DNA from: Flavobacteriales bacterium
GTDB lineage: Bacteria; Bacteroidota; Bacteroidia; Flavobacteriales_C; GCA-002722245
NCBI GenBank assembly: GCA_002720635.1
Contig: PBJD01000049.1
Coordinates: forward strand, 1 to 41,675
Direction: 5' to 3'
Length of the DNA: 41,675 nucleotides
Part shown: positions 1 to 23,365 of the stretch, piece after piece
Numbering within the stretch: position 1 is the stretch's first letter
Layout: every line of letters begins with the position of its first letter
The notes under the pieces: model-generated
The model's input: the letters and a program-made list of their open reading frames with translations, nothing else
The model's database searches: none
Told to the model about the DNA's origin: nothing
Translations under genes and position numbers: made by a program

Positions 1-89
1 ATTGCAAGCAATCCCTGTTACCCCTCGACTTGCATGTGTTAAGCCTGCCGCTAGCGTTCATCCTGAGCCAGGATCAAACTCTTCGTTGT
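1..89 (-). rRNA. 16S ribosomal RNA, 5' end only
   Basis: Read on the minus strand, this stretch contains the universal 16S start: AGAGTTTGATCCTGGCTCAG at about 82-63, followed by GATGAACGCTAGCGGCAGGC and the ACACATGCAAGTCGAG helix. The mature 5' end is placed at about 89 by counting back from E. coli position 8, so it may be off by a few bases. Only about the first 90 nucleotides are inside the window; the gene runs out at position 1. The GCTAGCGGCAGGC version is typical of Bacteroidota. Confidence 0.97.
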
Positions 90-126
90 AAAAGAAATTT
101 TAAATTTTGTCTGACTTTTTGTTACC

Positions 127-14962: not shown

Positions 14963-16384
14963 TTAGGCCTGACTCAACTTTAAAGTATTCGTTTTACCTT
15001 TTTCTTTTATTGGCATAGAAGCGATATTAATAAAGAAATCTCCTTCTTTAACGACTCCTTTAGCCATCAAAGAATTTTTAATGTCATCGATATTCTTATC
15101 TGTAGATGTAGAATTATCGTAATAGAACGCTTGTACACCCCATACAAGATTCAGCATATTTAAAATCGCCTTGTTGCTTGTATATACATATGTAAAAGCT
15201 CTTGGTCGTTGAGATGAAATTTTACGAGCAGTATATCCTGAGGCGGTCATTGTAATTATGGCTTTGGCATTAACACGTTCCGCCAAACTTACTGCACTTA
15301 CACATATGTTATCAGATATAAACCTCTCTTCTCTATAAATAGGCAAGTAATCATGATTATAAATATCATCGTATTCTTCCACTTTTTTCACAATATTGGT
15401 CATTGTTTCAACAACCAAACCAGGATGTTTACCTACTGAAGTTTCACCAGAAAGCATTACCGCATCAGCTCCATCCATAACCGCATTTGCAACATCATTT
15501 ACCTCTGCTCTGGATGGTGTAATGCCGTCAATCATACTTTCCATCATTTGTGTTGCGACTATGATAGGCTTAGAAGCTTTTAAACACTTTTTAACCATCA
15601 TTTTTTGTAATAAAGGGACGTCCTGATACGGCACTTCAATCCCTAAATCACCTCTTGCAACCATAATTCCGTCAGATTCATTGACAATATCATCAATATC
15701 ATCAATAGCTTCAGGCTTTTCAATTTTTGCAATTATTTTCAAATTTTTGCCAGACGCTTCAATTAACTTTCTAAGTTCAATAATATCTTGAGCAGAACGC
15801 ACAAAAGATAAGGCAACCCACTCAACATCCTGGGTAAGGATATAGTCTAAATCTTCTCTATCTTTTTTCGTCAAAGAAGGTAATGAAATTTTTGTATTGG
15901 GAAGGTTAACTCCTTTTTTACTCTTTAACATACCACCATGTTCAACAATTGCCACAACTTCATCAACTCCATTTGAAGACTCAACCTTAACAGCCAACTT
16001 TCCATCATCAATAAGAATTAACTCACCCGGATTTACATCTTTGGCAAAATTTTGATAGGTCATGTAAACCTTTTTTGCCGTGCCAACACATTCTTTATTA
16101 GTAAAAATAATTTTATCCCCATTTTTTATTTCACAGCCTTCATTCTCCATTGCACCAACTCGAAGTTTTGGACCTTGAAGGTCTGCTAAAATTGCAATGT
16201 TTGAATTAATTTCGTTATTTACTTTCTGAACCCGTTTAATATTTTCTTCATGAACACTGTGATCTCCATGGGAAAAGTTTAAACGACAAACATTCAATCC
16301 CTTATCATACATCTCCTTAATTACTTCAACAGATGAAGATGCAGGTCCTAAAGTCGCTACAATTTTTGTTCTCTTTAATTCCAT
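14963..16384 (-). CDS. pyk: Pyruvate kinase
   Basis: This 473-residue enzyme converts phosphoenolpyruvate and ADP to pyruvate and ATP. It is full length. Visible sites are NVCRLNFSHG (31-40; R34, N36, S38), ADLQGPKLRVG (67-77), the catalytic signature IIAKIEKPEAI (K220, with metal ligand E222) and MVARGDLGIEVP (D246). The C-terminal allosteric domain is present. A -7-like TATCTTTA lies upstream at 16429-16422 but has no matching -33 element, so pyk may have its own weak promoter or be read through from the IPExxxVDY gene 136 bases upstream. Confidence 0.97.
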   Translation of the reverse strand: MELKRTKIVATLGPASSSVEVIKEMYDKGLNVCRLNFSHGDHSVHEENIKRVQKVNNEINSNIAILADLQGPKLRVGAMENEGCEIKNGDKIIFTNKECVGTAKKVYMTYQNFAKDVNPGELILIDDGKLAVKVESSNGVDEVVAIVEHGGMLKSKKGVNLPNTKISLPSLTKKDREDLDYILTQDVEWVALSFVRSAQDIIELRKLIEASGKNLKIIAKIEKPEAIDDIDDIVNESDGIMVARGDLGIEVPYQDVPLLQKMMVKKCLKASKPIIVATQMMESMIDGITPSRAEVNDVANAVMDGADAVMLSGETSVGKHPGLVVETMTNIVKKVEEYDDIYNHDYLPIYREERFISDNICVSAVSLAERVNAKAIITMTASGYTARKISSQRPRAFTYVYTSNKAILNMLNLVWGVQAFYYDNSTSTDKNIDDIKNSLMAKGVVKEGDFFINIASMPIKEKGKTNTLKLSQA

Positions 16385-16520: not shown

Positions 16521-16937
16521 TTAAAAAAGTAAATTATTTCTACTTTTGAGTTCCATTGGATCAATCTGTATGGCCACCAATACGGATGGGATTTCCCTGA
16601 GCTCATCTTTGAAAGAAGACAATTCCTGATCCGACATAGGTCCCCAATATTGTAGAAAATAATCTATTTGCTTAAGTTCCGGAATTAAATAGCCCGAATC
16701 ACACCTGTTCGAGAGAAGATGAAATGTTGTATAGCTCTCCTCATCATTGAATCTGTATAAACTAAAGTTCCCCTTCTTATCAGAATCAAATGATATATCG
16801 ATGTCATCTACCCGCTCCAAATCGATTTCAAACAACTTATTCATACCCCATGCAATACGATAATTCGACACATGACTTGAAACTCCAAATAAAGAAAAAT
16901 CAAAATCTAGATCTAGATCTAAAACAAGTTTACTCAT
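16521..16937 (-). CDS. IPExxxVDY family protein
   Basis: This is a 138-residue acidic protein with the family signature as LIPELKQIDYFLQYWG (about residues 84-99, with Ile in place of Val of VDY). It starts with a low-complexity LDLDLDFDF run coded by a short AGATCT-type DNA repeat. No signal peptide or membrane segment is seen. From memory, this family is commonly found between rnc and pyk in Flavobacteriales, as it is here, and has no known function. Its ATG lies inside the 3' end of rnc (8-base overlap), which suggests translational coupling to RNase III. Confidence 0.82.
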   Translation of the reverse strand: MSKLVLDLDLDFDFSLFGVSSHVSNYRIAWGMNKLFEIDLERVDDIDISFDSDKKGNFSLYRFNDEESYTTFHLLSNRCDSGYLIPELKQIDYFLQYWGPMSDQELSSFKDELREIPSVLVAIQIDPMELKSRNNLLF

Positions 16938-17658
16938 CCAACAATTTAAATTTTTGACAGAATTTATTTGCGGCGATTTGCTCCGCCTTTTTCTTCGACT
17001 TTTCTTTACCCCAAGCTACCTCCTCCCCATCCAATTTTACGCAAGCCTCAAAAAATTTATTTCTGCCCTCTCCAGTTTCACTAACAATTTCAAAAGTCAA
17101 CTCTCTTTTTTCTTTCTGAGCCCATTCAATTATGCGAGACTTAAAATTTGTTTCTTCATTCTCTAATTTCTCCAAAGAAATGTATGGCTGAAGAATTCTT
17201 TTGAGAATAAAACTTTCACAAGCTTTAGTTCCTCTATCTAAATATATTGCACCAATTAAAGCTTCAAAAGCATTGCCATAAATAGAATCCGTTTTACTCT
17301 TTTTATCCAATCGAGCAATTACAATTTCATCTAATCCAATTTTTTTTGAAAGCTCATTAAGCGAATGTCTACTAACTATTTTAGATCTCATTTTTGTAAG
17401 AAACCCTTCATCTTTAAGAGGATATTTTTTAAATAGATAATCCGCTACAACTGCACCCAAAATCGCATCTCCTAAAAATTCAAGACGCTCATTACTCTCT
17501 GTATATTTAGAGGAATGATCGTAAACGGCAGATTTATGAATTAATGATTTCTCAAACAAAAAAACATCGTTGGGATAAAAACCAACGATGTTTTTTATAT
17601 TTTTTGCAAGTTTATTTCTTCTTAAGAATCTAAATCTAAAAATTGAAATAATACTCAA
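16930..17658 (-). CDS. rnc: Ribonuclease III
   Basis: RNase III (242 residues) cuts double-stranded RNA, including rRNA precursors. The catalytic signature is NERLEFLGD (56-64; E60, D64), followed by a second acidic site in YGNAFEALIGAIYLD (E132; the E. coli Asp114 position is N129). A double-stranded-RNA-binding domain fills about 172-239. The start is a TTG only 2 bases after the fabF stop, and no ATG or GTG precedes the conserved domain. Translation is probably low and coupled to fabF. A perfect 15-bp hairpin lies within codons 21-34 (see 17559-17596). The 3' end overlaps the IPExxxVDY gene by 8 bases. Confidence 0.95.
   Translation of the reverse strand: MSIISIFRFRFLRRNKLAKNIKNIVGFYPNDVFLFEKSLIHKSAVYDHSSKYTESNERLEFLGDAILGAVVADYLFKKYPLKDEGFLTKMRSKIVSRHSLNELSKKIGLDEIVIARLDKKSKTDSIYGNAFEALIGAIYLDRGTKACESFILKRILQPYISLEKLENEETNFKSRIIEWAQKEKRELTFEIVSETGEGRNKFFEACVKLDGEEVAWGKEKSKKKAEQIAANKFCQKFKLLDE
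17559..17596 (-). promoter_or_regulatory. Perfect 15-bp hairpin with T-run inside the rnc coding start
   Basis: Bases 17559-17573 (AAAAAACATCGTTGG on the plus strand) pair perfectly with 17582-17596 (CCAACGATGTTTTTT), with an 8-base loop at 17574-17581. On the rnc mRNA this is a 9-bp mixed stem extended by six A-U pairs. It has terminator geometry (stem then U-run) and lies 62-99 bases after the TTG start. It is in coding sequence for the conserved first helix (IVGFYPNDVF). It could be an attenuator or a substrate for RNase III acting on its own mRNA. The structure is seen; the function is inferred. Confidence 0.65.
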
Positions 17659-17660
17659 AA

Positions 17661-18923
17661 CTAGTCTTTGTATTTCTTAATTACAATAGAAGCATTATGA
17701 CCTCCGAAGCCAAATGTATTTGTCATTGCAACATCAACTTTTCTTGACTGACCCTTGTTTAAAGTAAGATTCAACTTACCATCAATATTTTCATCAGGTG
17801 TTGAATGATTTATTGTAGGCGGAATAAAATCTTCCTGAACAGCTTTAATGGTTGCAATAGTCTCTATCGCTCCAGCAGCCCCAAGTAAATGTCCAGTCAT
17901 AGATTTTGTTGAACTAATATTCAAATCATATGCCTTTTCACCAAATACTTTTTGAATTGCAGTTAATTCAGCTACATCTCCTAATGGAGTAGAAGTGCCA
18001 TGAACGTTAATGTAATCTACAGCTTCAATAGATAAGCCAGCATCATCCAAGGCATAATTCATTACATTTCTGGCTCCCAACCCTTCTGGATGAGGTGCTG
18101 TCATGTGATGAGCATCTGCAGACATACCTCCACCAACGATTTCGGCATAAATATTGGCTCCTCTGGCTTTAGCATGCTCATATTCTTCTAGGATAATAGC
18201 ACCGGCACCTTCACCTAATACAAACCCATCTCGAGTAGCATCAAATGGACGTGAGGCGGTTGCTGCCTTATCATTATTTGTGGAAAGTGCATGACATGCA
18301 TTAAATCCACCAATACCTGTTTCATTAACAGCTGCTTCAGAACCTCCAGTAACAATAACATCCGCTTTACCCAAACGTATATATGTGAATGAATCAATCA
18401 ATGCATGGCTTGATGAAGCACATGCGGAAACCGTCGTATAATTAGGACCTCGATAACCATGTTTAATTGAAATATTACCAGGGGCAATATCTGCAATCAT
18501 TTTAGGTATAAAGAATGGATTAAATTTAGGTCCTGTATCACTTTCTCTGGCTTTTAACAAAACTTGAGCTTCGTCTTGAAATGTTTCAAGACCTCCAATA
18601 CCTGAACCCCAAATAACCCCAACTCTATCGGGATCGAAACTTCCTTCAGTTAATCCTGCATCATTAATAGCTTCGTCAGTAACAACCATCGCATACTGAC
18701 TAAACTTATCCATTCTCCTTGCCTCTTTTCTGTGAATAAAATCATTCACATTAAAGCCTTTTAATTCGCAAGCAAACTGAGTTTTATGATGCTTAGGATC
18801 GAAGTAAGTAATTCTCGCAGCACCACTCACTCCCTTTTTAAGGGATTCCCAATAATCGGGAAGAGTATTCCCTATAGGAGTAAGCGCACCAAGACCTGTT
18901 ACAACAACTCTCTTTAACTCCAT
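17661..18923 (-). CDS. fabF: 3-oxoacyl-[acyl-carrier-protein] synthase II
   Basis: FabF (420 residues) condenses malonyl-ACP with growing acyl-ACP in fatty acid elongation. The Cys-His-His triad is visible: C168 in VSACASSSHAL, H309 in NVHGTSTPLGD and H345 in KSMTGHLLGAAG. The C-terminal FGFGGHN loop is present. Two histidines rather than His-Asn place it with KAS I/II rather than KAS III. It follows acpP by 21 bases and precedes rnc by 2 bases, forming an acpP-fabF-rnc operon. Confidence 0.97.
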   Translation of the reverse strand: MELKRVVVTGLGALTPIGNTLPDYWESLKKGVSGAARITYFDPKHHKTQFACELKGFNVNDFIHRKEARRMDKFSQYAMVVTDEAINDAGLTEGSFDPDRVGVIWGSGIGGLETFQDEAQVLLKARESDTGPKFNPFFIPKMIADIAPGNISIKHGYRGPNYTTVSACASSSHALIDSFTYIRLGKADVIVTGGSEAAVNETGIGGFNACHALSTNNDKAATASRPFDATRDGFVLGEGAGAIILEEYEHAKARGANIYAEIVGGGMSADAHHMTAPHPEGLGARNVMNYALDDAGLSIEAVDYINVHGTSTPLGDVAELTAIQKVFGEKAYDLNISSTKSMTGHLLGAAGAIETIATIKAVQEDFIPPTINHSTPDENIDGKLNLTLNKGQSRKVDVAMTNTFGFGGHNASIVIKKYKD

Positions 18924-18944: not shown

Positions 18945-19181
18945 TTACTTTGCGTTTTCTTCGATGTAGCCAATTGCTTCCTTTACAGTACTAATTTTTT
19001 CAGCTTGATCATCAGGAATAGCAATATTGAATTCTTTTTCAAATTCCATAATTAGCTCAACCGTGTCTAATGAGTCAGCTCCTAGATCGTTTGTAAAGCT
19101 AGCTTCTGGAGCTACCTCACTTTCATCAACTCCTAACTTATCAACGATAATTGCTTTTACTCTTGATTCGATATCAGACAT
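18945..19181 (-). CDS. acpP: Acyl carrier protein
   Basis: This 78-residue acidic protein has the phosphopantetheine site [10 protein letters not shown], with S37 as the attachment serine. Length and charge are typical of ACP, which carries acyl chains through fatty acid synthesis as 4'-phosphopantetheine thioesters. It heads the acpP-fabF-rnc operon. The 167-base divergent gap to purN is very AT-rich; I saw no full TTTG-N19-TAnnTTTG promoter in it on either strand. Confidence 0.98.
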
Positions 19182-22132: not shown

Positions 22133-23365
22133 ATGAAAGAATTTAAATTATTCTTAATTGGGCTATGTTCACTCACAGCCCTTTTTTCTTGTAAAAAAGA
22201 TGATGCGAATATTGGAGCTTATCTTTCAGAAGCTCCAAATAAAATTGTTGCAGAAATAGTTGATTCCTTTTATGTAACCACATATTCCGGCATAGAAGAC
22301 TCAATAATCACTTCCGGGAGAATATCACCAATGTTGGGTACTATTAATTCGACTGAATTAGGAATCGCAAAAAGTAGTTTGTTTGCGAGTCTTATTCCCG
22401 ACTCCTTAGATAGATTTTTCCCAAGTTCTGATTTTAATATAGATTCATTTTACATCCAATTCCACATAATAGATGTATATGGAAAAAATATTAATCAAGA
22501 ATTTGAAATATTTAAAATTAACGAACCCATTGATGAAAATTCAACTTATTATAATTTCGACACCATTACCGTTGGAGAAAAACTAGGTTCTATCACACTT
22601 AATATTTCTGATTCAGGTATTTATAAATACAATTTAGACAGTTCGGCTGCACATTATCTATTCTCTAACATTAACTCCAGTTATGAATCCAACGAAGCCT
22701 TTAAATCCTTTTTTGCAGGTATTTACATCTCCCCTTCAACAAATCCTTATATAGATGAAGGAGCTATATATAAATTAAACAAAACAGGAATTTCGCTGCA
22801 CCTTTCTTTCTCAACGACAAACGGAACAGATAATCAATATGATACTGACCTGGTATATATGGTTGAAAATGAACAAAATATATTTGCTCGATTTACCCAT
22901 GATTATACGAATGCTGAAGTAAACAGTATTTTTACAGATTCTACTTTAGGACAGAATGCCTACTATGTGCAAGGGCTGGCAGGAGTTTATGGAAAAATTG
23001 AATTCCCGACCCTACAAAAATGGTTCAACAACGACTCCATAAATTATTTAATCACAGATTTTGAATTTACAATATATGTGGCTGATAATTCAACTTTCAC
23101 ATTACCTGATCAATTATTTCTTACCTACACGAGTTCAGCTGGTTTAAGAACCTATAAAAGTGCAATGTTAAATTCAGAAGAAAACTCTTACAGATTTGAA
23201 ATTTCCAATTCAGAAATAAATACATCACTTGAAAATGGAATGATAAATGATTTGAACTTCGAGATCTCTCATCCTTTTTCTGGAAGCAGTCCGGAACAGG
23301 TGAAAATATTTGGAGGTAATTCAGAAACTCCTCCAATCTTGAAAATCTCATATACAAGCTATTAA
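22133..23365 (+). CDS. DUF4270 family lipoprotein
   Basis: The 410-residue protein has a lipoprotein signal peptide (LTALFSCKKD, lipidated C20). The rest is beta-rich with low Cys content and the DUF4270 pattern: VDSFYVTTYSGIEDSI, then GRISPMLGTINSTELGIAKSS, which introduces the metal-free N-terminal domain. It is probably anchored in the outer membrane or its inner leaflet. No function is known for the family. It follows the GT5-like gene by 9 bases and is closed by the terminator at 23370-23397. Confidence 0.85.
   Translation: MKEFKLFLIGLCSLTALFSCKKDDANIGAYLSEAPNKIVAEIVDSFYVTTYSGIEDSIITSGRISPMLGTINSTELGIAKSSLFASLIPDSLDRFFPSSDFNIDSFYIQFHIIDVYGKNINQEFEIFKINEPIDENSTYYNFDTITVGEKLGSITLNISDSGIYKYNLDSSAAHYLFSNINSSYESNEAFKSFFAGIYISPSTNPYIDEGAIYKLNKTGISLHLSFSTTNGTDNQYDTDLVYMVENEQNIFARFTHDYTNAEVNSIFTDSTLGQNAYYVQGLAGVYGKIEFPTLQKWFNNDSINYLITDFEFTIYVADNSTFTLPDQLFLTYTSSAGLRTYKSAMLNSEENSYRFEISNSEINTSLENGMINDLNFEISHPFSGSSPEQVKIFGGNSETPPILKISYTSY

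Follow-up and report, generated by a model that had tools for sequence, protein, structure and literature searches.

In the Flavobacteriales contig analysed here (PBJD01000049.1, positions 1 to 41,675, hereafter the window), the first codons of rnc, the structural gene for RNase III, contain a perfect hairpin that is directly followed by a U-tract. Sequence comparisons suggest that this hairpin probably serves the acpP-fabF unit as an intrinsic terminator that overlaps the start of the following gene and is subject to ribosome-dependent read-through. Such a terminator would sit within rnc because the gap between fabF and rnc is too small to hold it.

The hairpin within the first codons of rnc

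On the minus strand of the window, acpP, fabF, rnc, a short uncharacterised ORF and pyk follow each other in this order (Table 1), and almost no space (2 nt) separates the fabF stop from the TTG start codon of rnc. The rnc product was identified as an RNase III by Pfam matches to PF14622, PF00636 and dsrm domains. The 5' end of a 16S rRNA gene was detected by an Rfam match at the contig edge (window 1-89, minus strand). For the hairpins, Rfam covariance models yielded nothing relevant, either across the window or at the rnc and pth loci; only spurious sub-threshold matches came up. A single consensus-like match to a local promoter (17686-17656), overlapping the fabF stop, was present in the window's species only and was discarded as a candidate.

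Table 1. Coordinates of the features discussed, given as window positions unless stated otherwise.
Feature	Position	Strand	Remarks
acpP-like acyl carrier protein ORF	18945..19181	-	first in the presumed unit with fabF, judged from sequence
fabF, 3-oxoacyl-ACP synthase	17661..18923	-	stop codon 2 nt ahead of rnc start
rnc, RNase III, 242 aa	16930..17658	-	TTG start
hairpin, 15-bp stem and 8-nt loop	17559..17596	-	in rnc codons ~21-34; core CATCGTTGG/CCAACGATG
7 consecutive U completing the 3' arm of the hairpin, then G and UUU	17558..17564	-	terminator-type tail; same in 5/5 genus members
uncharacterised ORF	16521..16937	-	overlaps rnc end, downstream of hairpin; no Pfam match
pyk, pyruvate kinase	14963..16384	-	next gene downstream; gap about 136 nt
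pth hairpin (loci L127-L134, L138-L140, L146, L156-L185)	pth nt ~73-116		terminator-shaped, covarying

The hairpin has 15 pairs without any mismatch (9 mixed and 6 A-U) and a loop of 8 nt, and it occupies about nt 63-100 of the gene; on the rnc sense strand it reads AAAAAACAUCGUUGG-UUUUUAUC-CCAACGAUGUUUUUU, followed by U-G-UUU. The original prediction had described just this stem and loop within codons 21-34, and its coordinates and description were correct, as was its statement that rnc begins with TTG 2 bases past the fabF stop. Folding of the 141-nt region around the hairpin gave z = -4.2 (z = -4.0 in the RNA sense) and the 26-nt core alone gave z = -6.3. The 13-bp part of the stem that adjoins the U-tract has a predicted stability of -16.4 kcal/mol, corresponding to the GC-containing hairpin of an intrinsic terminator, and the U-tract that such terminators possess lies on the transcribed strand right behind the 3' arm, reading UUUUUUUGUUU in all five genus members.

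When a 425-kb sample of the window's genome was surveyed for perfect hairpins of at least 12 bp, 19 of the 23 hairpins detected were located between genes or at gene edges and 4 inside coding sequences. The intergenic ones mostly consist of an A-tract, a stem and a T-tract, with loops mostly of 3-4 nt. Among the four in coding sequences, it is the rnc hairpin that shows terminator anatomy, with an A-tract, a mixed core and 7 U on the sense strand, and it resembles the intergenic terminators of the same genome except for its loop of 8 nt.

The encoded peptide accounts for part, not all, of this structure. In a Monte Carlo recoding test, in which the protein was held fixed and codons were drawn according to genomic codon usage, about 5% of the synonymous recodings gave a U-tailed hairpin at -10 kcal/mol or better, so that the rnc peptide is predisposed to form one, whereas a hairpin with U-tail of the observed stability was obtained in only 0.05-0.3% of the recodings per species. 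Less-used codons form the stem (CCC, 13%; ATC, 13%; AAC, 28%).

Conservation of the element and a second form in the sister genus

The genus was represented by the window's genome and four further species with 74-84% protein identity; a contig search for more members returned the same four metagenome-assembled genomes and one distant match. The hairpin is kept in all five, with 14 of the 15 pairs intact in each, and the outermost A-U pair is missing in the other four members. In comparisons restricted to columns with an invariant amino acid, identical codons were found in 9 of 10 columns of the stem and tail versus 34 of 137 columns outside them (Fisher p = 6e-5), and none of the three loop codons (Gly, Phe, Tyr) is constant across the five species. 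Elsewhere in rnc, synonymous sites are near saturation, same-codon identity being 0.48-0.60 for all but the closest pair versus 0.47 expected at saturation. Two species carry AUU/AAU where the other three carry AUC/GAU, a C-G to U-A switch in which one of the two substitutions is silent and the other replaces Asp by Asn; this covariation concerns one pair only, in two closely related genomes, and with five sequences it does not exceed the shuffle control. It is thus evident that relatives preserve the pairing at synonymous sites, where the original prediction had expected any RNA constraint to appear, and that one pair covaries.

Symmetric changes in both arms would also suit the site of a dimeric repressor, and a palindromic DNA operator controlling rnc was considered. 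However, the exact palindrome occurs solely in rnc in each genus genome, for which reason the idea of an operator with a regulon was rejected; as the palindrome of the sister genus (see below) is different and a U-tract directly follows both, an operator is extremely unlikely. A potential frameshift site was also dismissed, as the heptamer A AAA AAC is present in the window's species alone, the others having T AAA AAC.

At the fabF-rnc junction of five genomes of the family's other genus, a hairpin followed by U6 was found inside the rnc start in 5/5 cases, 53-59 nt past the fabF stop (for example GACCCGGUUAAAGAAAUUAACCGGGUUUUUUCC). Its stem of 9-11 bp has no sequence in common with the hairpin of the first genus, and the hairpin occupies a different protein position, about 10 nt more upstream with respect to the GFxP motif, which is conserved. 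The stem includes the codons CGG (3% usage) and GGG (8%), and in synonymous recoding the chance of obtaining the hairpin was at most 3e-5 per species. A terminator-shaped element at the rnc start is consequently present in 10/10 family members in two unrelated forms, which share a GC-containing stem, an immediate U-tract on the sense strand and a similar distance from fabF. This recurrence is the strongest evidence obtained for the element.

These data bear on whether the hairpin could simply be a by-product of the conserved peptide KNIVGFYPN(D/N)VF, which might favour an inverted repeat that close relatives then inherited. The predisposition of the peptide speaks for this explanation, but the rarity of recodings with the observed stability, the near-saturation of synonymous sites elsewhere, the change of loop codons while stem codons stay, and the second, unrelated hairpin in the sister genus make it very improbable. 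Judged from these sequence patterns, the rnc hairpin appears to be a real nucleotide-level element under selection and no chance product.

A duplex of 9-11 bp is short for RNase III. If the enzyme cut its own transcript at the hairpin, so that rnc were lost but fabF preserved, the stem of 14-15 bp within rnc itself would be a plausible target, and autoregulation by cutting within the rnc coding sequence has been demonstrated in Staphylococcus aureus (PMC3386247) and reported for Streptomyces (as cited in PMC3386247). Against self-cleavage, the sister genus has the shorter stem, both genera conserve a U-tract for which cleavage would have no need, and the same architecture occurs in pth, which does not encode an RNase III. 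Since the two genera share the U-tract and the distance from fabF and not a long duplex, a terminator or attenuator is favoured over self-cleavage. Of the two mechanisms contemplated in the original prediction, attenuation thus gained from the likeness to intergenic terminators and from the unrelated hairpin with U-tract of the sister genus, whereas self-cleavage as the main role lost ground and is unlikely; as an additional role in the window's genus it is possible.

The element might alternatively terminate antisense transcripts that enter fabF-rnc on the plus strand. A U-rich run is indeed present on the plus strand in the window's genus, but the sister-genus hairpin has no U-tract right after the stem on the antisense strand and no large plus-strand gene ends nearby, so that this explanation is extremely unlikely. 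Outside the family, an embedded rnc hairpin of comparable strength was found in 0 of the 40 other class members examined; in one of them, L015, fabF and rnc are separated by an ordinary terminator. Where the fabF-rnc junction is just as tight, most other Bacteroidia have no hairpin at it.

Hairpins at the start of other genes and the case of pth

Terminator-like hairpins in the first 120 nt of genes numbered 14 in the window's genus versus 3.0 +/- 2.0 in synonymous shuffles, and 6 versus 1.4 in the sister genus, counts in which orthologues, including rnc of several species, figure more than once and to which few gene families contribute the excess. Beyond the first 120 nt there was no excess over the synonymous shuffles (14 versus 20 in the window's genus, 13 versus 10.8 in the sister genus).

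Several individual loci with such hairpins were observed. A gene for a DUF4270 lipoprotein located after a glycogen-synthase-like gene carries the hairpin GGGCTATG..CACAGCCC plus TTTTTT within its signal-peptide codons (window 22160-22187, plus strand; L077 7332-8573, L079 1773-3002, L086 18705-19955), with one mismatch in the window's species and with full pairing and compensating changes in other genus members. In the window's genome, L052 5855-6349 (minus strand) and L060 3330-4025 (plus strand) show a strong hairpin with a T-rich tail near nt 30. An rnpA-like gene of one genus member (L081 119-517, minus strand) has a strong hairpin with a U-rich tail at nt 65, which may resemble the intragenic terminators reported for E. 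coli rpmH-rnpA; a literature search for the latter returned nothing.

In the same scan of gene starts, pth, which encodes peptidyl-tRNA hydrolase and lies behind rplY (L25), showed a hairpin of 12-16 bp with a U-rich tail at nt ~74. Twelve sequences, chosen for showing the hairpin and aligned in codon register and not fitted to the structure, contained 8 two-sided pair changes and 22 compensatory cells versus 4.0 and 7.6 in shuffles. A covariance model built for this hairpin, which is not in Rfam, gave matches in 48 of the 198 class genomes, and a literature search for a rplY-pth terminator gave no result. pth is an even clearer case of an embedded hairpin than rnc, and one that extends across many families.

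Among distinct relatives picked by protein similarity, the hairpin was present in 12 of 13 in which no more than 42 nt separate the rplY stop from the GLGN motif of pth, whereas a hairpin with U-tail was missing in all 12 with a longer rplY-pth gap or no adjacent rplY, three of which have an intergenic terminator-like hairpin instead. Three loci of other families detected with the model (L165, L173, L185) possess the pth hairpin at apparent gaps of 100-128 nt, so that the gap rule is a tendency; for rnc, it fails outside the window's family.

The pth data also bear on the proposal that the rnc hairpin slows ribosomes early in the gene, in favour of nascent-chain folding or of a lower output, without any termination. 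A stable stem made of less-used codons about 20 codons past the start would fit such a speed bump, but it would leave unexplained why a conserved U-tract adjoins the stem in pth as well as in both genera, and why the pth hairpin is linked to a short intergenic gap; we consider this proposal highly unlikely.

A model for read-through, its implications and comparison with known systems

Termination at the rnc element and its degree of efficiency are inferred, as are the part played by the ribosome, the relative expression levels and any regulation. RNA polymerase leaving fabF would reach the hairpin and U-tract about 65-105 nt past the fabF stop. If a ribosome that had started at the weak TTG start of rnc were close behind, it would cover the 5' arm and polymerase would read on, whereas without a close ribosome the hairpin would form and transcription would end. 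Only some of the polymerases coming from fabF probably pass into rnc, and the expected outcome would be a plentiful acpP-fabF message, protected by the hairpin at its 3' end, and a scarce message for rnc and possibly for the genes downstream. The embedded terminator would most likely lower rnc relative to acpP-fabF. A search of 160 nt upstream for an antiterminator revealed no complement to the 5' arm common to all members, and no conserved regulatory signal was found at the rnc hairpin.

In Bacteroidia, where a strongly expressed gene is directly followed by one needed at low dose, a terminator may be written into the first codons of the second gene under dual coding selection, the translation of that gene setting its own read-through. 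That rnc in the window's family and pth in many families are instances of such a gene-packing rule is a tentative generalisation, to which we give slightly less than an even chance. Were it true, the dose of RNase III and of peptidyl-tRNA hydrolase would be set by a stop signal within their own coding sequences, and the codons of rnc and pth would hold a second message, providing a simple and testable case of overlapping terminator and protein information. It would also help to explain how high and low expression are split in tightly packed operons, and it would be a warning that synonymous recoding of such genes could alter their expression.

Intragenic attenuation as such is already known, and the present variant gains interest from its recurrence in two genera with unrelated sequence and from the parallel in pth. 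In E. coli, a trailing ribosome keeps intrinsic terminators from acting, among them predicted intragenic ones, and predicted terminators within genes can act once coupling is broken (PMC5021804). The predicted sites in narY and rsxC and pyrL-type attenuation resemble the rnc element in having a GC stem and a U-tract in a translated region, and both are expected to depend on the coupling of transcription and translation (PMC5021804). The rnc element, a predicted terminator, differs from them in its location in the first ~35 codons of the gene after fabF and in its family-wide synonymous selection. Mapped premature and ORF-internal 3' ends were described as points of regulation in E. coli, and about 20% of the listed ORF-internal ends score as intrinsic terminators, the main text of that study making no mention of rnc (PMC7815308).

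Other bacteria also possess hairpins by which the expression of rnc may be limited. In E. coli, rncO is a 5' terminal stem-loop of the message that is cleaved by RNase III and is autoregulatory; its likeness to the present case is one of analogy, a hairpin limiting rnc expression, whereas the element described here is situated in the coding sequence and is terminator-like. RNase III autoregulation located within the coding sequence is known from rnc of S. aureus (PMC3386247) and from absB of Streptomyces (as cited in PMC3386247), and what the element described here has in common with them is a hairpin in the rnc coding sequence that may limit rnc expression. The S. aureus helix, however, is long and irregular and is cut near nt 296, whereas the stem in the window's genus is short and perfect, with a U-tract, near nt 63-105, and that of the sister genus measures only 9-11 bp.
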